42,459 nucleotides of DNA from a virus. Shown piece by piece: positions 5,759 to 42,459 of the stretch (position 1 is its first letter; each line of letters opens with the position of its first letter). The notes under the pieces are model-generated. The model was not told the DNA's origin and did not search any database. It saw only the letters and a program-made list of their open reading frames with translations. A program made the translations under genes and the position numbers. Location: positions 1-42,459 of IMG/VR virus record IMGVR_UViG_3300042549_009826. One strand, 5' to 3'.

Positions 5759-7264
5759 CTATTCAGGTTTTGGTTCGTTGATTTCCTCTTCGATGGAAAG
5801 CATTTCGAATTCCATCAAGTTTGACAAGAAATCCGTCACTTCTGACTTCTCTTCAGCAGCGTAGTCCTTTTTGGCTTTGTCCATATCTTCCTTGGAGACC
5901 CAGCTCAAAGGAATCATTTCTTCCATGCCAAGGTCAACAGCTCTCTTCATGATATGAGCTTTTGCTGCTGTCTTGTCTTTTGCGCGACCGTAAGCCTGGA
6001 TTGCATTCTTCAAGTCTGCTTCATCCTTGATTGGGAATGAACCATCTGCAAGTGCCTGCCCGGCTTGAGCCATTGATGTGCGCGAATCTTCCGAGTAGGC
6101 ACGCTTCAGCGCAATTTCCGCCGCTTCGGCTTCAATCTCTGAAGCTTCTTCCTGCGTATACTCATCGTATCCAAGCACTTCACCATCGAGCCCAACAAAC
6201 ACGTCATACGACTTGCCATTGAGGCCCTCGATTTCTACTGCGTAAACATCAAATCCCTCAAAAACATCTGGTTCAACAGCAATGATGTCACCTTCAACCG
6301 ATTTAACAGCAATATCTGCTGCTTCACCAAAGCTAATCATCACCTTGTTTTGCAGCGCAGACTTAACCTGCACGACATCCTGAGTGAGCATGTGCCAGCC
6401 CATGACTTCGCCGGTTGAACCATCGAAGAACACCTCGACTGGCTTTCCGTCTTTTCTCTCAACATCAACTATAAACAGGTCTGCTTCATCTGAATATCCA
6501 GAATCGAGAACCTTGCCTCTAAACATGTCTTCTGCCATGCCTTCAATTTCAATCAGGGCTGGCATTCCCTTTTCGGAAACACAACCGCCTGGGCAGCTAT
6601 CGCAAACATTTGCGCCGCCTGGGTAGACCTTGCGGTCGAATCCACAAACGAATGCGTTGTCGTCAAAATCTGCTGACTTGTACCCCATTGTTCCGAGTCT
6701 GCGTCTGCGCATCTTTTTGCGAACTGAAGATTCATCTGAGTACATGCCATCCATGTCTTTTTCGTCTTCGTCTAGTTCTACTTCAGCGTCTGGCCCCATC
6801 ATCATGGCGCCTTTCTTTTTCTTCTTTGGCGCAGAACGACGGACGAACATTTCGTCTACTGATTCATCATCATACATTTTGCCGTCAAGGTCTTCCATGT
6901 CTTCGTCTTCTTCGTCGTCATCTGCGGCCATGTCTTCGTCGTCTTCGTCGTCCATGTCCTCTTCATCCATGTCCTCTTCGTCATCAACGAGCTCCATGTC
7001 TTCCATGTCGTCATCTTTTTCTTCATCTTCCATGGACATTTCTTCATCCAGGTCAGAATCCATTGCGGCCATGTTTAGCATGTTTTTCTTGGCGGCCTTA
7101 ACGTCAACATCTTCTTTCTTCTTTACAGAGACAGCCATTGCTCCGCACTTTCCACAAACTTTTGCGCCTGGCGTGTATCCACACTCATCCGAGCCGAGGC
7201 CTTTGGCGCAACTAACAACTTCGCCGTCAGCATTCAACTTTACGACTGCTGCTTTTTCGCTCAT
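5759..7264 (-). CDS. Acidic Cys-containing protein with PepSY-like repeats, head operon
   Basis: The protein has 501 residues. I chose the ATG at 7264, not an upstream in-frame codon, because AAGGAGC lies just before it and it overlaps the TGA of the preceding gene (ATGA). The N-terminus has four spaced cysteines (C19, C28, C37, C40), resembling a zinc ribbon. Next is a strongly acidic, Met/Asp/Glu-rich low-complexity stretch (about 6850-7080). A second Cys cluster (VCGFD...NVCDSCPGGC) follows, then two PepSY-like beta repeats (GFDVYAVEIEG, KSYDVFVGLDGEVLGYDEY). The C-terminal segment (DGSFPIKDEADLKNAIQAYG) is of a kind I recall at the ends of actinophage head-associated proteins. It may be a scaffold, decoration or internal head protein. 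It does not read as a major capsid protein. No function is assigned. Confidence 0.85.
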   Translation of the reverse strand: MSEKAAVVKLNADGEVVSCAKGLGSDECGYTPGAKVCGKCGAMAVSVKKKEDVDVKAAKKNMLNMAAMDSDLDEEMSMEDEEKDDDMEDMELVDDEEDMDEEDMDDEDDEDMAADDDEEDEDMEDLDGKMYDDESVDEMFVRRSAPKKKKKGAMMMGPDAEVELDEDEKDMDGMYSDESSVRKKMRRRRLGTMGYKSADFDDNAFVCGFDRKVYPGGANVCDSCPGGCVSEKGMPALIEIEGMAEDMFRGKVLDSGYSDEADLFIVDVERKDGKPVEVFFDGSTGEVMGWHMLTQDVVQVKSALQNKVMISFGEAADIAVKSVEGDIIAVEPDVFEGFDVYAVEIEGLNGKSYDVFVGLDGEVLGYDEYTQEEASEIEAEAAEIALKRAYSEDSRTSMAQAGQALADGSFPIKDEADLKNAIQAYGRAKDKTAAKAHIMKRAVDLGMEEMIPLSWVSKEDMDKAKKDYAAEEKSEVTDFLSNLMEFEMLSIEEEINEPKPE

Positions 7265-34929: not shown

Positions 34930-35991
34930 ATGGCTATTCAACAATTTACAGCTGGACAGACGTTGACGGCCGGCGCAATGAATGCGCTGCAGGCAAGCGA
35001 TTTTAACTATACGAGAAAAATAGTTACCGCGGCGACATACACGGCCGTTCTTGAAGACCGTGGTCAGCTTCTTGAGTTCCAAAATGCTGGTGGAACGACC
35101 GTAACGATACCGACCAACTCATCCGTTGCCTTCAGTCTTGGCGATGTGCTTGAGATAATTAGCAGTTCTTCTGCAACGGTGCAGATTTTTGGTGACACTG
35201 GAGTGACAATCGAAGCAACTGGAGGAATAACCTCTTTGACTTCTGCATGGCAAAAAGCACAGTTGGTTAAGCGCGAAACAAACAACTGGGTTTTAACTGG
35301 AATTACTTCTGTGGCAATTCTTGATTCAACGATTACCAATGCTGACGTTGCAAACAATGCAGCGATAGCATTAAGTAAGATTGCTTCCGGAACCGCAGCA
35401 CAGGTTGTAATAGCCAACAGTTCTGGAACCCCTACCTATACAACAATTTCTGGAGATGTGACAATCGACTCTTCTGGCGTCGTTGAGATTGGGCCAGGTA
35501 AAATAGTCGACGCAGATATAAATGCATCTGCAGCGATTGACAAGACCAAGATTTCTGGAACAGCAATTACTGCTGGAGATAGCGGAACTGTTACATCAAC
35601 AATGATTGCTAATCAAACCATTGTCGATGCAGACATCAGCACAACCGCTGCAATTGGCTTAGGTAAATTGGCTGATGCGACTATTGACATCAAAACAGGA
35701 AACTACACACTTCAACTCACAGACAAGAACAAGTTCATTAAAATGAACATAACAAGCACCGCAAATACTGTTACCGTTCCTCTTGACTCAACAGTTACCT
35801 TCCCTGAAGGCGCACAGATTCATATTATTCAATACGGAACAGGCAAGACGCAAATTGTTGGTGCCTCGGGGTCAGTAATACTTTATTCAACTCCTGGCGC
35901 CTACTTACGTGCACAATATTCATCGGCAACTTTGCTGAAGTGCGCCGCGGCGAACACCTGGATGTTGATGGGTGACTTGAGTGCTTCATGA
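34930..35991 (+). CDS. Tail fibre protein with internal repeats
   Basis: The protein has 353 residues. It begins with TAGQTLTAGAMNALQ, like many fibre N-termini. Two barrel-like blocks resemble each other (TAATYTAVLEDRGQLLEFQNAG near 33; NYTLQLTDKNKFIKMNITST near 258), each followed by a VTIPTNSSV/VTVPLDSTV strand. Between them are three copies of a 17-residue motif (TITNADVANNAAIALSKI; IVDADINASAAIDKTKI; IVDADISTTAAIGLGKL), typical of trimeric fibre shafts. The product probably forms the receptor-binding fibre or its shaft. Its stop overlaps the next start (ATGA). Confidence 0.82.
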   Translation: MAIQQFTAGQTLTAGAMNALQASDFNYTRKIVTAATYTAVLEDRGQLLEFQNAGGTTVTIPTNSSVAFSLGDVLEIISSSSATVQIFGDTGVTIEATGGITSLTSAWQKAQLVKRETNNWVLTGITSVAILDSTITNADVANNAAIALSKIASGTAAQVVIANSSGTPTYTTISGDVTIDSSGVVEIGPGKIVDADINASAAIDKTKISGTAITAGDSGTVTSTMIANQTIVDADISTTAAIGLGKLADATIDIKTGNYTLQLTDKNKFIKMNITSTANTVTVPLDSTVTFPEGAQIHIIQYGTGKTQIVGASGSVILYSTPGAYLRAQYSSATLLKCAAANTWMLMGDLSAS

Positions 35992-36689
35992 TACCGGGAA
36001 ATACTTCTAGTCAGGGAAAGTTCTCTGATGCGCCGACATCTGTTTCGGCTAGTGCGGGCAACGGTCAAGCAACTGTTTCTTTTACTCTTCCAGCATACGA
36101 CGGTAAAGGTGTTGCAACCTATGTGGCAACTTCATCCCCCGGAGGTTTTACGGGAAGTGGTTCTAGTTCGCCCATAACGGTGACTGGTTTAAGCAATGGA
36201 ACTGCTTACACATTTACGGTCACCACGGTTACTGGATACGGGGTGAGCGCTGTATCAACTGCATCCAACTCGGCCACACCGGCGGCGCCAGCTCCTTCTT
36301 TCCCGCCAGCGCCTTCCTTCCCGCCAGCAAGCTGTCCACCCCCTGGGTATCCAACCGGAGACCCGCCATCCAGCAACTGCTCGAGGAGTTGCGGCGGTAA
36401 CGCCGGGTGTGTTGACGGCGATGGCTGCGGATATACTTGCTCCGGCGAGACTTCATATGAATACTGGTGTCAAGGTTGTCCGGGTTATGAGGGTGGGTAT
36501 TACGGAGCGCTTAGAAATGGTTGCTGTGGCTATGTGGCACCAACCCCCAGTTTTCCAACCCCCAGTTTTCCAACGCCCAGTTTTCCAACGCCCAGTTTTC
36601 CACCGACCGGCAACTGTGCCTCCTGTGGCGGTGGCAGCGGTTCAGGATGCATTGACATCAAGGGAAATGGCGAGGAAGGATGCCTATAA
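35988..36689 (+). CDS. FnIII, proline-rich and Cys-rich fibre-tip candidate
   Basis: The protein has 233 residues. Residues 14-95 form one fibronectin type III domain (VSASAGNGQATVSFTLPAY, GLSNGTAYTFTVTTV). Then come two APSFPP units, a Cys-rich block (14 cysteines between about 113 and 233, with Gly and Tyr between) and (TPSFP)4 at 186-205. The Cys-rich parts would need disulfide bonds, so the protein is probably exposed outside the cell in the virion. No signal peptide is seen, as expected for a virion part. The ATGA overlap with the fibre gene suggests coupled synthesis and a common structure. Receptor binding is inferred. Confidence 0.78.
   Translation: MIPGNTSSQGKFSDAPTSVSASAGNGQATVSFTLPAYDGKGVATYVATSSPGGFTGSGSSSPITVTGLSNGTAYTFTVTTVTGYGVSAVSTASNSATPAAPAPSFPPAPSFPPASCPPPGYPTGDPPSSNCSRSCGGNAGCVDGDGCGYTCSGETSYEYWCQGCPGYEGGYYGALRNGCCGYVAPTPSFPTPSFPTPSFPTPSFPPTGNCASCGGGSGSGCIDIKGNGEEGCL
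36543..36602 (+). repeat. Four 15-base tandem repeats coding TPSFP
   Basis: Four contiguous 15-base units with the consensus ACSCCCAGTTTTCCA, in frame, encode Thr-Pro-Ser-Phe-Pro each time. Copies 1 and 2 are identical to each other, and so are copies 3 and 4; the two pairs differ in one silent base (ACC versus ACG). This near-identity points to recent expansion. Two related APSFPP units lie upstream near 36291-36323. Confidence 0.9.
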
Positions 36690-36746
36690 TGTGGTCGGTG
36701 AATAAAAATATACGACACAAAAAAGATGGGAGCGAATGATTGACTT

Positions 36747-37214
36747 ATGATTAAAAAAAATGCATCATGGCAAGATTTGCTGCCAACTATAGAAAGAACA
36801 GAGGAAAGTTTTTTCACTACATGGTCTTTCTTTGAAGCAAAATTTGGGGAATTTGGCACCCCAGGCTTCTCTAAACAAATACTTCCAGCAAGATTCCCCA
36901 ATATTTTCGGTCACAATAATGAAATAAATGTAGAAACCTTCCTGTATCGAGGAGAAGATGGACAACTTCTTTGTGTAGTAGCTAGATACTATAACGAAGA
37001 ACAAAATATATATAAACCCTTTATTTTTGATGTTCACCCAGACCACCAACGACAAGGAATAGGAACAAAAGTTGCTGACTACATTCTTGAAAACGAAGAA
37101 ACAGAAGACTTTGACTACAAAAAATCATGGTCAGACACTACTGTGACACTGGCAAGCGCTAATTTTGCGAATAAATATGTTAAAAAATTCAACGAACCAG
37201 GAGCAGTGACATAA
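36747..37214 (+). CDS. GNAT-family N-acetyltransferase
   Basis: The protein has 155 residues, normal for the family. Motif A is clear: FIFDVHPDHQRQGIGTKV, with Q101-R-Q-G-I-G106 forming the acetyl-CoA pyrophosphate loop. A preceding strand (LLCVVARYY) and a late strand (TVTLASAN) complete the fold. The substrate cannot be read. The stop overlaps the ATG of the zinc-ribbon gene (TAATG), so it belongs to the accessory operon. It might acetylate a protein, an amine or a sugar intermediate. Confidence 0.85.
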   Translation: MIKKNASWQDLLPTIERTEESFFTTWSFFEAKFGEFGTPGFSKQILPARFPNIFGHNNEINVETFLYRGEDGQLLCVVARYYNEEQNIYKPFIFDVHPDHQRQGIGTKVADYILENEETEDFDYKKSWSDTTVTLASANFANKYVKKFNEPGAVT

Positions 37215-37459
37215 TGACCGCCTACGAGGAATTCAAAAAAAGAAGACAAATGCAATTACAAAATGGGGCAAAGGTATTGCCAACCGACTTGTTGGATAAG
37301 TCAAATTACACAACAGACGAAATTGCCAGTACTAGAATGCAGATTTGCGAAGCGTGCCCAAAATTAATTAAGTTGACAAAACAATGCAAAGAGTGTGGCT
37401 GCTTCATGTCATTAAAGACAAAACTCAATACTGCAGTTTGCCCACTAAACAAGTGGTGA
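37214..37459 (+). CDS. Small zinc-ribbon protein
   Basis: The protein has 81 residues. After a helical start there are five cysteines in the pattern IC-x2-C ... QC-x2-C-x-C ... C (ICEACPKLI, QCKECGCFM, AVCPLNKW), a structural zinc ribbon. Similar small proteins occur in marine and freshwater phage genomes beside 2-oxoglutarate oxygenases, which is the situation here. Function is unknown; a protein-protein adaptor for the neighbouring oxygenases is conceivable. Confidence 0.8.
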   Translation: MTAYEEFKKRRQMQLQNGAKVLPTDLLDKSNYTTDEIASTRMQICEACPKLIKLTKQCKECGCFMSLKTKLNTAVCPLNKW

Positions 37460-37480
37460 TAGTGGAATGCGGTTCCATAC

Positions 37481-37996
37481 ATGCTTTTACACATCGACTC
37501 TTTTCTAACTGAAGACGAAAGACTTGAGTTGCTCTGCACCGCATATTCTGCGAGTAGCAGTGATTGGTCAATACAAAATGGTGGTGGGGAATATTGGGTT
37601 GGCAATAGATTCCCATTTCAATCACCAATATTTGATTTGTTAAATGAGCGAATTAAATTATATTTTGATGATTATGATTTTATAAGCCCATTTTGTGGAA
37701 TACAAAGAATCTCCCAGGGTGGTGGAATGGGAGAACACACTGACAACTATCAGAAGACATGCAGATTCGGATGCGTTGTATATCTGAATGATAACTTTGA
37801 GGGTGGGGACCTCGTGTACCCGCGTCTTAACACTGTTTGGCGACCATCTGCATCACAATTGGTTGTTCATGCCGGTGATGAGCCACACCTGGTCAGCACT
37901 GTTTCTAGTGGAACTAGGTATATGTTGACATGTTTTGTTTATGGCAGCGAAACAAAAAACCCATCAGTTAATTATGAATTACAGCACCAGAATTGA
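37481..37996 (+). CDS. 2-oxoglutarate/Fe(II) oxygenase 1
   Basis: The protein has 171 residues, prolyl-4-hydroxylase-like. H86 and D88 in GEHTDNY and H136 in DEPHLVS form the iron triad; R146 in GTRYMLTCF would bind the 2-oxoglutarate carboxylate. The strand VVYLNDNFEGGDL is a marker shared with the four genes that follow. The enzyme class couples oxidative decarboxylation of 2-oxoglutarate to hydroxylation of a substrate. All catalytic residues are present, so activity is likely; the substrate is unknown. Confidence 0.9.
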   Translation: MLLHIDSFLTEDERLELLCTAYSASSSDWSIQNGGGEYWVGNRFPFQSPIFDLLNERIKLYFDDYDFISPFCGIQRISQGGGMGEHTDNYQKTCRFGCVVYLNDNFEGGDLVYPRLNTVWRPSASQLVVHAGDEPHLVSTVSSGTRYMLTCFVYGSETKNPSVNYELQHQN

Positions 37997-38567
37997 GCTA
38001 ACCCCCTCTGGGTATTGGGGTGATTCTGTGGACAATATACACATTTTTGAAAATTTACTACCGACCGATGAGCTCGCAGAATTGCTTCGCTATGCAAAGT
38101 GTAATGACGATTGGTCTGCCGTATACGGCCATCATCAATGGTCCGACAGGGTACATAGAGATTTTACTGAGCCTATAGCGAAGAACATTTACGAAAATCT
38201 ATATATCAAAACGAAAAACATACTTCAAACTACGTTTGACATTTTGGCCGACTCAACTGGAGCTCAGCTAAATAGATGGCAAGTTGGTGATGAGCAAGCA
38301 CCACATGCCGATAAACAGGAACTTGATGGAAGCAAAAACTGTTGTCCAACATACGACCTATCGTCAGTATTTTATCTCAATAATGATTTCAAAGGAGGAG
38401 AAATATTTTTCCCGATTCAATCATTCACAGCAAAACCAGTCAGAAACATGCTGATAATTTTCCCCGGCGACATAAACTTTATCCATGGAGTCAATACGGT
38501 TACCGATGGGATAAGATACACAGTGTCCACGTTCTGGACAGTGACAGGAATTCGGAGTGTTTTGTGA
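37974..38567 (+). CDS. 2-oxoglutarate/Fe(II) oxygenase 2
   Basis: The protein has 197 residues from the ATG at 37974, overlapping oxygenase 1 by 23 bases; an upstream in-frame ATG at 37935 is possible but overlaps further. H111 and D113 (APHADKQ), H171 (FIHGVN) and R181 (GIRYTVSTFW) complete the active site, and VFYLNNDFKGGEI is the family strand. A two-Cys insert (KNCCPTYD) lies before that strand. Probably active. Confidence 0.88.
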   Translation: MNYSTRIELTPSGYWGDSVDNIHIFENLLPTDELAELLRYAKCNDDWSAVYGHHQWSDRVHRDFTEPIAKNIYENLYIKTKNILQTTFDILADSTGAQLNRWQVGDEQAPHADKQELDGSKNCCPTYDLSSVFYLNNDFKGGEIFFPIQSFTAKPVRNMLIIFPGDINFIHGVNTVTDGIRYTVSTFWTVTGIRSVL

Positions 38568-39385
38568 ATCAAGAAGAGCTTTATCCAAAAATAGTTGTCT
38601 TCCGTGACACAATTGGGGACTCGAAAAATTTTGAATCGCTATTAGCGGACGGTTCCCCGCATGTTCACCCCTGGACCGATTGGTACAATCTCGGCAAAGA
38701 AACCCACTTTATCGGATATCCAAATTTCTTTTCTACATCATTTCCAACAAAACACGAATGGGAATCAAATTATTCAATAATATCAAATAACCCAGTAGCA
38801 ATGGAAACTGCATCAATTTTTTATGAAACTACTAATCAGTATGTATCCAAATATGGAATTGAAATTCCCAATTGGTCGCACTATGGCCCATTCTTGCTGA
38901 CTCATTCTGCAAAACCAATAGACGGAACGCTTGCTATGCAGTATCACACGGATTTCAAAATGGCCGAAACACACAACCCAGGTTATAAATTTTGGATAAC
39001 CTGCCTACTTTATGTAAATGATGATTACCAGGGTGGAGAAATAGCTTTTAAGGTATTCGCAGATGAAAATAACATTTCTGAAAATGACCCATTTGTCCAT
39101 TTTAAATACAAACCTCGGGCAGGCGATATGCTGATTCTCCCGGCACATCACCCGTATTACCACGGTGTATGCAAAACACTCTCTAGCCGTAAGTTATTCA
39201 TACGCATGTTCTGGGGATACGAGTATGACGGTAGCGATAGTTGGAAAGCAAACGAAACCAAATACGGCAAAGATATTTGGGGCGAAATGGAGAAGGACAG
39301 GCTTGCTCGCGAATTCAAAGAATCAAAATGGATGATGGGCGCAGTTGAAGAAACTGGAAATTTAATCCCGAACTGGAATATGTGA
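38564..39385 (+). CDS. 2-oxoglutarate/Fe(II) oxygenase 3
   Basis: The protein has 273 residues, the longest of the group, with a GTG start that overlaps the previous TGA. H128 and D130 (MQYHTDFKM), H200 (YYHGV) and R209 (SSRKLFIRMFW) mark the active site; LLYVNDDYQGGEI is the shared strand. The C-terminal 55 residues (KANETKYGKDIWGEMEKDRLA...) are an extra helical tail absent from the others, perhaps for partner binding. Confidence 0.88.
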   Translation: MNQEELYPKIVVFRDTIGDSKNFESLLADGSPHVHPWTDWYNLGKETHFIGYPNFFSTSFPTKHEWESNYSIISNNPVAMETASIFYETTNQYVSKYGIEIPNWSHYGPFLLTHSAKPIDGTLAMQYHTDFKMAETHNPGYKFWITCLLYVNDDYQGGEIAFKVFADENNISENDPFVHFKYKPRAGDMLILPAHHPYYHGVCKTLSSRKLFIRMFWGYEYDGSDSWKANETKYGKDIWGEMEKDRLAREFKESKWMMGAVEETGNLIPNWNM

Positions 39386-40029
39386 TGGACTTTGTTAACC
39401 TAGGACCACCAGAACTGGGGATAAGAATTTATAAATCCACACTCGGCCCAGACTCATCAGAACTACTAAATCAGTGCCTTACCGATGAGCAGTCGTGCAA
39501 TAAATGGTCGCTTGCGCTTGTTGGATACGAGCAGGTACCAGACGAAAGTTACAGAAATTGTCAAGATTTTAAAATGGGAACAAATGAAATCCCATATGTG
39601 CAGGACAAAATTGTCTCAGTTTATGAAGAAACAATTAGTCAAGTTAGAGGTTGCGTTGAAGATTATTCTCGGTCATACGGCATAAGTATGAATTATATGG
39701 AAGCAGTAAATTTTGTAAAATACAAACAGGGAACTCATTTTTCTTACCACTCAGACCATGCGCATCATTATGTGTGCACCATCTCAACAATCGCTTATTA
39801 CAACGATAATTACGAAGGTGGAGAATTATCTTTCGATAAGTTGAACCTCAAACTCAAGCCAACCGCTGGGGATGTTATTGTTTTCCCGTCAACATTTATT
39901 TATTCCCACGCAAGCCTGCCAGTGATTACGGGAACCAAGTATGCTGCGGTAACCATGTTTGATTACAATAATGAATACAGCAGCTTTAGGAGAAGTCTCC
40001 TAAAGGGTCAAATAATTAATCGGGGTTAA
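39385..40029 (+). CDS. 2-oxoglutarate/Fe(II) oxygenase 4 (Lys in place of Arg)
   Basis: The protein has 214 residues from the ATG at 39385 (TGATG overlap); a GTG three bases earlier is also in frame. H122 and D124 (FSYHSDHAHH) and H175 (YSHASLPV) are present. The residue expected to bind 2-oxoglutarate is K185 (GTKYAAVTMF), not Arg. In collagen prolyl 4-hydroxylase a lysine fills this role, so activity is still plausible. IAYYNDNYEGGEL is the shared strand. Confidence 0.87.
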   Translation: MDFVNLGPPELGIRIYKSTLGPDSSELLNQCLTDEQSCNKWSLALVGYEQVPDESYRNCQDFKMGTNEIPYVQDKIVSVYEETISQVRGCVEDYSRSYGISMNYMEAVNFVKYKQGTHFSYHSDHAHHYVCTISTIAYYNDNYEGGELSFDKLNLKLKPTAGDVIVFPSTFIYSHASLPVITGTKYAAVTMFDYNNEYSSFRRSLLKGQIINRG

Positions 40030-40036
40030 CAATAAA

Positions 40037-40645
40037 ATGAAAACAATTGCACAAAAAGAAGATTTTCTGAGCCCTGATGAGTGCGACCTATTAATTTTGA
40101 TGGCCGAATGCCAAAATGATTGGGACAATTATCCTGGTTCATTTCTTGATGAAAGAATTATAGATTTTTTTACCACGCTTCAACATCGCCGCTGTTCTTC
40201 CGTTCAATCACATAGACTATGTTTGCAGATTTTTCGTAAAATGCAGGATTATGTTTCTAAATTTATTGGCCATGATGTAAATGTAGAATTCATGGCGATT
40301 CTGCGTATTGAACCAGGAGCTCAACAGCCTATGTTTAAATATTTCGCAACAGAAATTGGCCGAGTTGCAGAAAGCGTAGTTTTTTTGAATGACGATTTTG
40401 ATGGTGGTGAGGCCTTGTATCCAGATTTTGGAAAAATTGTAACGCCCAAAACCGGCTCAATTTATGTGGCTAAAACGGAAAACGAGCATTCACATGGCGT
40501 GAGTCCTGTTTCTGGCTCAACACGTTATTCAATTATCTCCGGATGGACAAATAAGCCATTAACCGGAGAACTAGACGAGAGGCTTAAAAAATTGGAGGAT
40601 TATGTTATTGAATTTGGTCAAGAAGAGGCCCCAGTAGTCGGCTGA
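40037..40645 (+). CDS. 2-oxoglutarate oxygenase-fold protein 5, metal site degenerate
   Basis: The protein has 202 residues. Fold markers remain: VVFLNDDFDGGEALYP, H153 (HSHGVSP) and R163 (STRYSIISGW). The place of the HxD pair, after IEPGAQQP, reads M99-F-K101, so two of three iron ligands are missing. The sequence is otherwise intact with no stop or frameshift, which argues for a maintained non-catalytic role such as a partner or substrate-binding subunit rather than decay. The C-terminal 30 residues are a charged helix (GELDERLKKLEDYV). Confidence 0.85.
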   Translation: MKTIAQKEDFLSPDECDLLILMAECQNDWDNYPGSFLDERIIDFFTTLQHRRCSSVQSHRLCLQIFRKMQDYVSKFIGHDVNVEFMAILRIEPGAQQPMFKYFATEIGRVAESVVFLNDDFDGGEALYPDFGKIVTPKTGSIYVAKTENEHSHGVSPVSGSTRYSIISGWTNKPLTGELDERLKKLEDYVIEFGQEEAPVVG

Positions 40646-40743
40646 ATTTATCAATTCTGGGGGCTTGCCTGTCTGCGTTTGTTTCTGCAGAGTGTGGCAT
40701 TGTTTTTTTCTTAGATGTAATGTTTTAAACCGAATGCCAGCCA

Positions 40744-40769
40744 TCACCCCAAAGGGTGAGAAGTTTTTT
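40744..40769 (+). terminator. Intrinsic terminator after oxygenase cluster
   Basis: TCACCC (40744-40749) pairs with GGGTGA (40754-40759) over the loop CAAA; GAAG and six T (40764-40769) follow. It lies about 100 bases after the last oxygenase and before the convergent glycosyltransferase, where a terminator is expected. The rest of the 163-base gap holds no convincing gene. Confidence 0.7.
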
Positions 40770-40808
40770 GAAATAAGCGTCGTAGCGCAGTGCCACGGTT
40801 TTTGGCCC

Positions 40809-41921
40809 CTAAACCTTCATGTCCATAATTTCACGAAATACAGAAAGCCATTTATTGCTCATTGAAGTCATTGAGTATTTATCTTTAACAATGCCGTAGT
40901 TATTTTGTGCTTCTTCAAAGCGCAATTTGTATTCCTGAAGTTCATCAAGATGTTTAATCCATTCTTCTGCTGTAGTTGCGATTCGTCCCACTCCGTTTTT
41001 TGCAAGCAACCTGTATTCCGGTAGGTCAGAAGCAACAAAAGGGATACCCGCTGCAGCGTATTCAAGACCCTTTAGATACGACTTGGCGTGATTGAATGGT
41101 AGGTCATTCAGTGGGACGATTCCGATGTCTATCTTTTGCAACATTTGTGGAAGATTGGTTATTGGTTGCATTGGCTCAAGACACACAATACTTGGGTCAA
41201 CCTGCATCAATTCTGCTACGCTGTGCGCGTTCTGGATGTGCCCTGCATGATGGAATGTGAGATGCCGCGACTTTAGGTAGTCATTCATGAATGGCGCCAA
41301 TTGCTCAAGGTCATTTGCTCTCCACGGTGTGGCACCGCACCACCCGATGACTGGGAGTTTGGGCTGCATTTTCCGCTGCGGCCAGCGAGCAATATCGATT
41401 GAATTCCTGACCATAAAGACGGGCTTTGATGGGTACCGCGCTGAATACTGGTCATATAGAAATTGGGTTGAGCAAATAATGGCATGAGCCATGTCGATTA
41501 TTTCAAAATAAATATCTCGGTTATTGTCGGGGTTTTTTTCGGGGTCAGTCGTCTGTTTTGCCCTATTTGTATCAGGAAGGTCGTCAAACCAGTCATCAAT
41601 GTCAACAACTATTTTTTTACCAGCCCGCATTTCTGCTTCGACAATTTCTTTTGTTTTACGGTTCATGACAACTTTTAAAACGATGATGTCATGTCCAGAA
41701 ATCATTCCCTGTTGCTTGTAAAACGGTGGGGTTAGATATATGGCAAGACGGCCCTGTTCGGTAGAAGAAGCCATTCCGACATGCGCAGAGTAACCAGCGG
41801 AATTGAGGATTGATGCCGGTACTGCACAGCGGTACCACGTGCACCCGTTTGGGATATTGACCTCATTGACACGAGACCAGTCCTGGGAGACAAAACCGAC
41901 TGAAAACTTGGACGCGCCCAT
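40809..41921 (-). CDS. GT-B glycosyltransferase (GT4-like)
   Basis: The protein has 370 residues, a normal length. The C-terminal half carries the nucleotide-sugar signature DIGIVPLNDLPFNHAK followed by SYLKGLEYAAAGIPFVAS (K284, E287 region). PVIGWCGATPWRANDLEQL near 190 starts the second Rossmann domain. The N-terminal part has VVDIDDWFDDLP (about 105-116), seen in glycosyltransferases of this type. No membrane segment is visible, so it acts in the cytoplasm. It is convergent to the oxygenase cluster and divergent from the sulfotransferase, so it forms its own unit. Acceptor unknown: virion glycoprotein, host glycan or DNA base. Confidence 0.88.
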   Translation of the reverse strand: MGASKFSVGFVSQDWSRVNEVNIPNGCTWYRCAVPASILNSAGYSAHVGMASSTEQGRLAIYLTPPFYKQQGMISGHDIIVLKVVMNRKTKEIVEAEMRAGKKIVVDIDDWFDDLPDTNRAKQTTDPEKNPDNNRDIYFEIIDMAHAIICSTQFLYDQYSARYPSKPVFMVRNSIDIARWPQRKMQPKLPVIGWCGATPWRANDLEQLAPFMNDYLKSRHLTFHHAGHIQNAHSVAELMQVDPSIVCLEPMQPITNLPQMLQKIDIGIVPLNDLPFNHAKSYLKGLEYAAAGIPFVASDLPEYRLLAKNGVGRIATTAEEWIKHLDELQEYKLRFEEAQNNYGIVKDKYSMTSMSNKWLSVFREIMDMKV

Positions 41922-41948
41922 AAGCGTAATGCGACTATACTACCAGGC

Positions 41949-42459
41949 ATGGAAATAATCGTATCTGGAAGCACACCAAATCCCATCCAAAAACAAAATA
42001 CAGCCGGAAAACGGTATGCATTTCTATCTGGATTGCCACGCTCTGGAAGCACCCTACTAGGGTCGCTCCTTAATCAAAACCCAGAGGTTCACTCTGGTCC
42101 TAATTCACCCATTTGCGGAATGATGTGGCACTTGGAACAAAGCATCATTGTCAGCGAGCCGTGGACCGCGTATCCGAAACCAGATGTCCTGCCAGGCGTG
42201 GTGCGAGGTGTGCTTGAAGCATTCTACGCAGACACCGACTGCAAACTCGTCATAGACAAAAATCGTGAATGGGCAATGCCTCAGAACTTTGAACTCCTTC
42301 AGAGGAACATGCCATACGAGCCACGAATCATCGTGACGGTTAGGTCAATAGTCGAGATACTTGCATCCTTCATTAATCTTGTCCATGAGAATGAGGGCAG
42401 AGTTTCTTTTATTGACAAAGAAATTGAAGCGCACAAAAGCGCTCATTTCTACAAGCACC
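41949..42459 (+). CDS. Sulfotransferase family protein (truncated by window end)
   Basis: 170 codons are visible from the ATG at 41949 to the right edge, with no stop. AFLSGLPRSGSTLLGSLLNQNP (residues 24-45) is the PAPS 5'-phosphosulfate-binding loop, and IIVTVRSIVEILASF (127-141) carries the R132 and S140 that contact the 3'-phosphate. The enzyme transfers sulfate from PAPS to a hydroxyl or amine. It starts 27 bases from the divergent glycosyltransferase, so the two may share a regulatory gap; a glycan sulfation pair is a reasonable inference. Confidence 0.9.
   Translation, partial: MEIIVSGSTPNPIQKQNTAGKRYAFLSGLPRSGSTLLGSLLNQNPEVHSGPNSPICGMMWHLEQSIIVSEPWTAYPKPDVLPGVVRGVLEAFYADTDCKLVIDKNREWAMPQNFELLQRNMPYEPRIIVTVRSIVEILASFINLVHENEGRVSFIDKEIEAHKSAHFYKH

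Follow-up and report, generated by a model that had tools for sequence, protein, structure and literature searches.

Motif-matched candidate prolyl hydroxylases encoded behind putative proline-rich tail-tip genes of tailed phages

Introduction

The closest known counterpart of the enzymes considered here is vCPH of the algal virus PBCV-1 (PDB 5c5t), a virus-encoded prolyl hydroxylase to which the available part of PMC7019647 assigns no role. The hydroxyproline-rich proteins of plants and algae likewise combine repeats rich in proline with a prolyl 4-hydroxylase of this fold (P4H; PDB 3gze, with (Ser-Pro)5), and in plants hydroxylation precedes glycosylation, according to the accessible part of PMC8724618. 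This article deals with a DNA stretch of 42,459 nucleotides from a virus (IMG/VR record IMGVR_UViG_3300042549_009826, positions 1 to 42,459; hereafter the window), in which five genes of the 2-oxoglutarate- and Fe(II)-dependent (2OG-Fe(II)) oxygenase group, OX1 to OX5, follow the gene of a proline-repeat protein that probably forms a tail tip. This system differs from that of PBCV-1 in that it belongs to a tailed phage, its oxygenases are clustered beside a proline-repeat tip gene and the enzyme type is matched to the repeat type; it differs from the plant and algal systems, which are eukaryotic, in concerning a phage protein, whose hydroxylation is a prediction.

Other phages provide partial likenesses. 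EGLN3-like folds and 2OG-Fe(II) oxygenases are described as widespread in marine phages in the available portion of PMC12774648. Marine cyanophages encode enzymes of the same superfamily (phrog_61), and in S-H9-1 and ACG-2014h a pair of them lies just behind tail-fibre genes, the cyanophage genes nearest to OX4 (28-30% identity among the best matches listed) being located further on. However, the fibres that adjoin the other two oxygenases carry no proline repeat, and the oxygenase of syn9 lies among replication genes. For a cyanophage with 24 oxygenase genes, the consulted extract of PMC9602691 speaks of host metabolism and 2-oxoglutarate levels and states that the functions were not specifically investigated. 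The mycobacteriophage Maravista is, in the part of its description that is available, likewise thought to modify a virion protein of its own, but by a sugar transfer proposed for a capsid protein and not by prolyl hydroxylation of a tip repeat. Viral use of P4H is called cryptic, and collagen in tail fibres is mentioned, in the accessible text of PMC9301287. Among the papers listed in searches of the open-access literature, none ties phage oxygenases to a proline-rich tip. Phage oxygenases as auxiliary genes and viral modification of a virus's own virion proteins are already known, and the element added here is the proposed role of motif-matched prolyl hydroxylases as the modifiers.

We propose, with a probability of about 0.76, that these oxygenases are protein prolyl hydroxylases dedicated to the tail-tip protein of the phage itself. 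For one large group of phage oxygenases, the evidence thereby points to a specific substrate, namely the repeat in the tail-tip protein of the adjacent gene, and offers a rule by which the repeat type predicts the enzyme type.

The tip gene and its oxygenases

The features needed for the comparison are the following.

34930..35991, + strand: FIB, fibre-like protein (open reading frame, ORF), homologs of which lie immediately 5' of many tip genes
35988..36689, + strand: tip protein, 233 aa, with an fn3 domain (Pfam, 2.4e-6), two proline-rich repeats and Cys-rich segments
36286..36328, + strand: first proline-rich repeat, PAPSFP type (Tandem Repeats Finder, period 18, 2.4 copies)
36540..36602, + strand: second proline-rich repeat, TPSFP x4 (Tandem Repeats Finder, period 15, 4.2 copies, 97% matches)
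37481..37996, + strand: OX1, 2OG-Fe(II) oxygenase (PF13640; HxD...H...R complete)
37974..38567, + strand: OX2, 2OG-Fe(II) oxygenase (PF13640; HxD...H...R complete; predicted start)
38564..39385, + strand: OX3, 2OG-Fe(II) oxygenase with a GTG start (PF13640; HxD...H...K complete)
39382..40029, + strand: OX4, 2OG-Fe(II) oxygenase (PF13640; HxD...H...K complete; structure modelled)
40037..40645, + strand: OX5, 2OG-Fe(II) oxygenase by profile (PF13640; HxD replaced, F..Y)

In a Pfam scan of ten window proteins, all five oxygenase ORFs scored above the 27-bit cut-off of PF13640 (2OG-FeII_Oxy_3); OX2 may well start at the ATG at 37974 instead of the TTG at 37935, where its ORF opens. The FIB and tip genes overlap by 4 bases. 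The proline-rich and Cys-rich tail of the tip protein was recognised by reading its translation, and both repeats, which give the protein the proline-rich character of a hydroxyproline-rich glycoprotein, are presumed to be candidate hydroxylation targets.

Relatives of the tip protein were sought in viral contigs, from which the best 80 of 243 and, in further rounds, additional loci were fetched (loci bear L-numbers, e.g., L016). They have the fn3 start in common whereas their ends diverge into xFPP repeats, polyproline (polyP), PVTPP, PTPT, threonine runs or glycine-rich domains; the tip of L084 matches PF21722 in Pfam. This variability of the end and the place of the gene behind a fibre gene point to the tail tip as the probable location of the protein. 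A search of a phage collection with the tip protein at 1e-3 gave no match. Among 129 tip relatives in genome_contigs, where the matches mainly cover the fn3 part, none of the 77 loci fetched had an oxygenase by profile, and a host search through these relatives found no host.

Co-occurrence of oxygenases and proline-rich tips

Loci found via the fn3 tip were clustered at 90% identity, giving 191 clusters, 148 of which have at least 3 kb downstream, and a tip end was called proline-rich when it held at least 10 prolines in 30 aa. Oxygenases were detected with a profile built from OX1-OX5 and iterated on the loci of tip relatives. Within 3 kb downstream, an oxygenase is present behind 51 of 55 proline-rich tips and behind 3 of 93 others, so that the co-occurrence of repeat protein and oxygenases in relatives, put forward by a first-pass annotation of the window as a check of its idea of a protein-modification cassette, is borne out. 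The contrast stays strong across the thresholds and distances tried: 45/57 vs 0/117 at 1 kb, 35/36 vs 1/42 at 9 kb and, with the threshold raised to 12 prolines, 46/49 vs 8/99 at 3 kb. Furthermore, 152 of the 178 oxygenases within 5 kb are on the strand of the tip and, where the contig extends 5 kb in either direction from the tip (19 loci), 49 lie downstream and 2 upstream.

Loci were also found via the upstream fibre, hence blind to tip and oxygenase, on contigs that are partly the same as those of the fn3-tip set. In the first such sampling, for which 25 of 30 loci were tabulated with near-copies included, an oxygenase lies within 3 kb past the fibre end at 21/21 loci with a proline-rich next gene and at 0/4 others. 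In the second, the proportions within 3 kb of the next gene are 26/27 and 3/12; two of these three exceptions (L347, L380) have xFPP repeats with 9 prolines, just below the threshold, and the third (L413) has a threonine run. Among hand-picked whole contigs, PF13640 is found in all six records with a proline-rich tip, one of which (L290) had been retrieved via the oxygenase, and in none of seven records of 30 to 97 kb with glycine-rich, threonine-run or mixed glycine/proline tips.

The reverse test was made at the level of genes. Among OX4-anchored loci, 44 of the 58 that span 8 kb or more, and 22 of the 24 that span 15 kb or more, contain a gene with at least 10 prolines in 30 aa (neither series deduplicated), and in control loci of at least 8 kb, with fn3 and without a proline-rich tip, such a gene occurs in 7/96 (four of them near-copies) and an oxygenase in 4/96. 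OX4-anchored loci (L224-L303) were excluded from the forward, fibre-keyed, same-fibre, motif and PF11397 counts, and an earlier forward count that included them was discarded. A proline count over any ORF was rejected as a reverse test (48/58 OX4-anchored loci vs 34/44 loci with glycine-rich tips), since the reverse complement of glycine repeats reads as proline and the count is therefore uninformative. An enrichment count by gene family, in which the oxygenase cluster ranked first downstream (40/42 proline loci vs 5/39 others), was likewise set aside, single linkage having drawn DUF6065 into the cluster (178 of its 219 members are oxygenases).

As proline-rich and glycine-rich tips often come from different phage groups, the comparison was then restricted to loci that share the upstream fibre gene. 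There, an oxygenase lies within 3 kb of 41/45 proline-rich tips and of 3/16 other tips, two of these three being threonine-run tips that retain a few prolines (L164, L190). One pair of rows with a support of 81 opposes a glycine-rich tip without oxygenase (L170) to a proline-rich tip with one (L048). On a tree of fibre plus fn3 sequences there are four supported independent contrasts, with a mean of 3.0 in the expected and 0.1 in the opposite direction; the tree of fn3 alone is weaker.

Matching of oxygenase type and repeat motif

The motif of the repeat was compared with the oxygenase type in 88 distinct proline-rich tips having an oxygenase within 4 kb (xFPP 67, polyP 12, TPP/VPP 9), classed by a simple rule that mislabels some mixed repeats (e.g., L017, L044 and L345). 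In a partial Mantel test controlled for fn3 similarity, motif and oxygenase similarity correlate with r 0.447 for the best shared oxygenase, a value possibly inflated because xFPP loci hold more oxygenases, and with r 0.184 for the first oxygenase, which is free of that bias; none of 2000 permutations reached as high a value. Prediction of the motif class from the nearest first oxygenase has a balanced accuracy of 0.78, vs 0.45 from the nearest fn3 and 0.33 with shuffled labels, and succeeds for 64/67 xFPP, 10/12 polyP and 5/9 TPP/VPP tips. The oxygenase subfamily therefore goes more closely with the repeat motif than with the fn3 scaffold.

Two loci show clear joint exchanges of repeat and enzyme. 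L016 combines a PVTPP repeat and the fn3 domain of L011, a PSFPP tip, with the oxygenase type of the PVTPP loci L039 and L057, the oxygenases of all three PVTPP loci forming a starred group in the FastTree phylogeny. Similarly, L337 combines a PTPT repeat and the fn3 domain of L326, another PSFPP tip, with a first oxygenase nearest that of the PTPT locus L196. PolyP tips of differing fn3 types have their first or only oxygenases in one 14-member clade, which also holds those of the xFPP tips L007 and L020. OX4 falls in a starred clade whose 42 oxygenases come mainly from xFPP tips. Branches in this tree are long, and the placement of OX1 (on a long branch beside polyP-type oxygenases, in a weakly supported region) and that of OX5 are not firm. 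A search of the phage collection with OX1 gave 9 distant records.

Active sites and folds

In the alignment, the catalytic columns of OX1-OX4 read HDHR or HDHK, i.e., the iron ligands and the R/K for 2-oxoglutarate are all present, and HxD/E, H and R/K are preserved in 552 of the 557 oxygenases having all four columns aligned. OX5 has F and Y at the H and D positions of HxD and keeps the distal H and R, a signature found in just two of 589 aligned sequences, OX5 included.

When PDB sequences were searched with a profile for the OX4 group and another for the polyP-type group, the Bacillus anthracis P4H was the top match of both, followed by prolyl 3-hydroxylase 1 (P3H1), the PBCV-1 enzyme, an algal P4H and the lysyl hydroxylase LH3. 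Structure models of OX4 (pLDDT 87.3) and of the polyP-type enzyme of L033 (pLDDT 92.3) have as their best fold matches PBCV-1 vCPH (the first for OX4 and among the best for L033), algal P4H (also in complex with (Ser-Pro)5), Pseudomonas P4H, PHD2 and human P3H1; a small number of other oxygenases, some of them uncharacterised, rank in between. Both models are thus closest to solved prolyl hydroxylases of the P4H/PHD/P3H group, and OX4 is, as modelled, closest to the P4Hs.

The PVTPP-type oxygenases (L016 12087-13478, L039 4988-6313, L057 11010-12407) are 442-466 aa long and have their Pfam-matched domain at the C-terminus; their N-terminal parts gave no Pfam match above curated cut-offs.

Proposed mechanism, alternatives and exceptions

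As a prediction, hydroxylation of the proline repeats of the tip is well supported, the substrate and the prolyl chemistry being those that genes and models suggest. The tip protein, with an fn3 foot on the fibre, a proline-rich arm and a Cys-rich end, would be produced together with OX1-OX4 late in infection, and these enzymes would use O2 and 2-oxoglutarate to hydroxylate the repeat prolines before or during assembly. This could yield a stiffer, chemically altered arm bearing the receptor-binding end, the hydroxyls of which might also provide attachment points for sugars. Tip module and enzyme would be swapped jointly among phages, so that each repeat type retains its matching enzyme. If so, these phages would need O2, Fe(II) and 2-oxoglutarate in the infected cell in order to attach to their next host, and a set of small prolyl hydroxylases that prefer different motifs would become available.

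Other explanations differ in the target that they assign to the enzymes. The oxygenases could have a host target, for example elongation factor Tu (EF-Tu), bacterial prolyl hydroxylases that bind EF-Tu being among the nearest folds, or could lower 2-oxoglutarate and so steer host metabolism, control of its level being what the available parts of PMC9602691 and PMC10611076 predict for cyanophage oxygenases, while the region behind the tip merely accumulates cargo; indeed, a desaturase, a glutathione peroxidase and DUF6065 genes also occur behind proline-rich tips. Such targets would leave unexplained both the link between oxygenase presence and tip prolines and the match, independent of the fn3 scaffold, between subfamily and motif, and we regard this account as unlikely. 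It is somewhat less likely still that the enzymes modify Phe, Tyr, Ser, Thr or His in the tip repeat, or carry out another oxidation there, with proline as a scaffold: most multi-oxygenase loci have aromatic xFPP repeats and eight oxygenases follow a proline-free repeat protein in L242, but oxygenases are also present at polyP and PVTPP/PTPT tips devoid of aromatics, proline being the common residue, and prolyl hydroxylases make up most of the nearest folds.

There is also a slim chance that the oxygenases, together with the glycosyltransferase and sulfotransferase encoded after them, produce or change small molecules, phage DNA bases or glycans of the surface, and that their proline-rich neighbour is a coincidence of lineage. 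The positions of these two genes and of a GT2 gene after the oxygenase cluster, the differing lineages of proline-rich and glycine-rich tips and weak scores of some oxygenases for Tet_JBP, which we take to be a family of DNA-base oxygenases, all fit this idea. However, the Tet_JBP scores are below the cut-off everywhere listed, the link between tip and oxygenase persists inside one fibre lineage (41/45 vs 3/16, as above) and the glycosyltransferase and sulfotransferase of the window do not track proline-rich tips.

A number of observations count against dedicated hydroxylation of the tip. The phages with proline-rich and with glycine-rich tips do differ in lineage: relatives of DUF6171, probably a marker of a phage group, occur near 47/92 proline-rich and 0/77 glycine-rich tips (and near 4/6 threonine tips). 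The trees hold 2 to 5 supported contrasts, too few for their sign tests to reach significance, though nearly all have the same direction where both traits differ. At 5 kb, the second fibre-keyed sampling gives 22/23 vs 6/8 (p 0.16, not significant), three of the six non-proline positives being genes other than fn3 tips. Four proline-rich tips of the fn3-tip set have no oxygenase in the first 3 kb: those of L018 and L201 (two tips) have theirs at 3.3 to 5.5 kb, and that of L030 has its first one at 9.1 kb. In the fibre-keyed set, the tip of L399 has none in 6.2 kb; none was found either at L027 (PPPPP after a glycine run, 9 prolines) or at L041 (threonine run). Conversely, oxygenases occur at tips without proline enrichment, namely L164, L190 and the glycine-rich L169 (one oxygenase). 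L298 has four oxygenases and no proline-rich gene in 18 kb, and in L242 eight oxygenases come directly after a 93-aa His/Ser/Phe repeat protein (6701-6982), a possible non-proline target, with no proline-rich gene at the locus. Of the OX4-anchored loci that span 8 kb or more, ten (of 58) lack any proline-rich ORF stretch; six of the ten were opened, and four of these have less than 1.4 kb ahead of the first oxygenase. In cyanophages S-H9-1 and ACG-2014h, gp12-like fibres devoid of proline repeats are followed by two oxygenases, and the oxygenase gene of syn9 is flanked by uvsX and a gp41-like helicase gene. Oxygenases in phages without a proline-rich protein, which had been named in advance as a result that would speak against a modified tip, are therefore real, though confined to a minority of the cases examined (S-H9-1, ACG-2014h, syn9, L298 and L242). 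Furthermore, L217 has 11 oxygenases within 9 kb, the highest number and apparently a surplus for a single repeat. OX5 is probably inactive, judging from its residues, and, according to the available part of PMC7019647, virions of PBCV-1, whose enzyme is the best match, yielded no hydroxyproline. In view of these exceptions, including the cyanophages, the proposal of dedicated tip hydroxylation is limited to this oxygenase group and does not extend to all phage oxygenases.

Neighbouring genes and glycosylation

The remaining features of the window are the following.

36747..37214, + strand: GNAT-like acetyltransferase (PF13508, 24.4 bits, slightly below the cut-off of 27)
37214..37459, + strand: DUF6171 zinc-ribbon-like protein, phrog_13558 (31.0 bits, cut-off 27)
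40809..41921, - strand: glycosyltransferase, PF13692, phrog_7162 (Pfam)
41949..42459, + strand: sulfotransferase, PF13469 (Pfam, 31.8 bits); the gene runs past the window end

A 160-kb contig (L006) is a near-identical relative of the window (16468 of 16472 compared bases identical). Its sulfotransferase is complete (293 aa, 46.5 bits for PF13469) and is followed by a 226-aa ORF without Pfam match, then DUF6065 and then GT2; the five PF13640 matches found in it are all inside this single cluster. Scans of the window for tRNAs and against Rfam gave no match.

Pfam bears out the genes listed in the first-pass annotation (repeat protein, GNAT, zinc ribbon, five prolyl-4-hydroxylase-like genes, glycosyltransferase and sulfotransferase), assigning fn3 to the first, DUF6171 to the third and PF13640 to the five oxygenases. 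Of its five prolyl-4-hydroxylase-like genes, the fifth (OX5) proved to lack HxD, and its placing of the glycosyltransferase and sulfotransferase in the same cassette is qualified by the minus strand of the former, which shows that the region is not one operon, and by the truncation of the latter at the window end.

Neighbours were counted by tip class (92 proline, 77 glycine, 14 'other' and 6 threonine tips). Within 5 kb, relatives of the window glycosyltransferase occur near 1/92 proline and 1/14 'other' tips, and relatives of the sulfotransferase near 1/92 and 2/14. Glycosyltransferase relatives also lie 5.9 to 8.4 kb behind five proline-rich tips (L054, L063, L064, L069, L070) and at 2.7 kb in L023-L027, loci without oxygenase. 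The series of hydroxylation, glycosylation and sulfation that had been suggested for the window thus keeps its first step, in view of co-occurrence, motif matching and fold, whereas tip glycosylation and sulfation by the window's own glycosyltransferase and sulfotransferase are not supported.

A glycosylation step does get support in some relatives from another gene family, PF11397, which we equate with GT60 of CAZy. A PF11397 gene lies within 4 kb behind 4/4 tips with long threonine runs (18 or more T in 30; two other tips binned as threonine, with T 10, have none), 9/92 proline, 1/14 'other' and 0/77 glycine tips, either between tip and oxygenases or adjoining them. The first protein and eight more were checked in Pfam (E 1e-53 to 4e-25). 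Those behind the threonine-run tips are the following.

L041 8683-9654: PF11397 gene (Pfam)
L164 11078-12001: PF11397 gene (Pfam)
L190 2881-3834: PF11397 gene (Pfam)
L334 9715-10632: PF11397 gene (Pfam)

Their position suggests mucin-like O-glycosylation of phage tips. Indeed, as far as the accessible parts of PMC9472816 and PMC8724618 go, the GT60 group makes GlcNAc-Thr on mucin-like proteins of Trypanosoma cruzi, and a related Dictyostelium enzyme starts the glycan on hydroxyproline of Skp1, so that the PF11397 genes behind threonine-run and some proline-rich tips stand beside the same two acceptors. The likeness is one of predicted activity in relatives; PF11397 has no match among the ten window proteins scanned nor in the 160-kb relative, a contig that may be incomplete.

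More broadly, aquatic tailed phages could exchange adhesin modules that pair each low-complexity repeat with a dedicated modifying enzyme, giving hydroxylated and glycosylated tips that resemble extensins or mucins. Motif-matched prolyl hydroxylases would serve proline arms (xFPP, polyP, TPP) and GT60-like GlcNAc-transferases would serve threonine runs and some (hydroxy)proline arms, whereas glycine-rich tips would need neither. We put this combined picture at even odds. To our knowledge, such chemistry of surface repeats is familiar from eukaryotes only.

Among the other neighbours, relatives of the GNAT gene occur near 7/92 proline vs 0/77 glycine tips, and DUF6065 genes (L187 5517-6239 and relatives) within 5 kb of 44/92 vs 1/77, a link that lineage may explain. 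When 120 genes were sampled per side (of 289 behind proline and 256 behind glycine tips), modifying enzymes were numerous behind proline-rich tips and lysis or structural genes behind glycine-rich ones in the part of the family counts that was listed (25 families, out of 44 and 40), function not being separable from lineage in this comparison. Finally, two proline-rich tips (L070 2058-2957, L201 2819-3736) end in a C-terminal Hint/intein-like domain (PF14890, PF13403, below curated cut-offs), a hint that the tip may cleave itself or be ligated.

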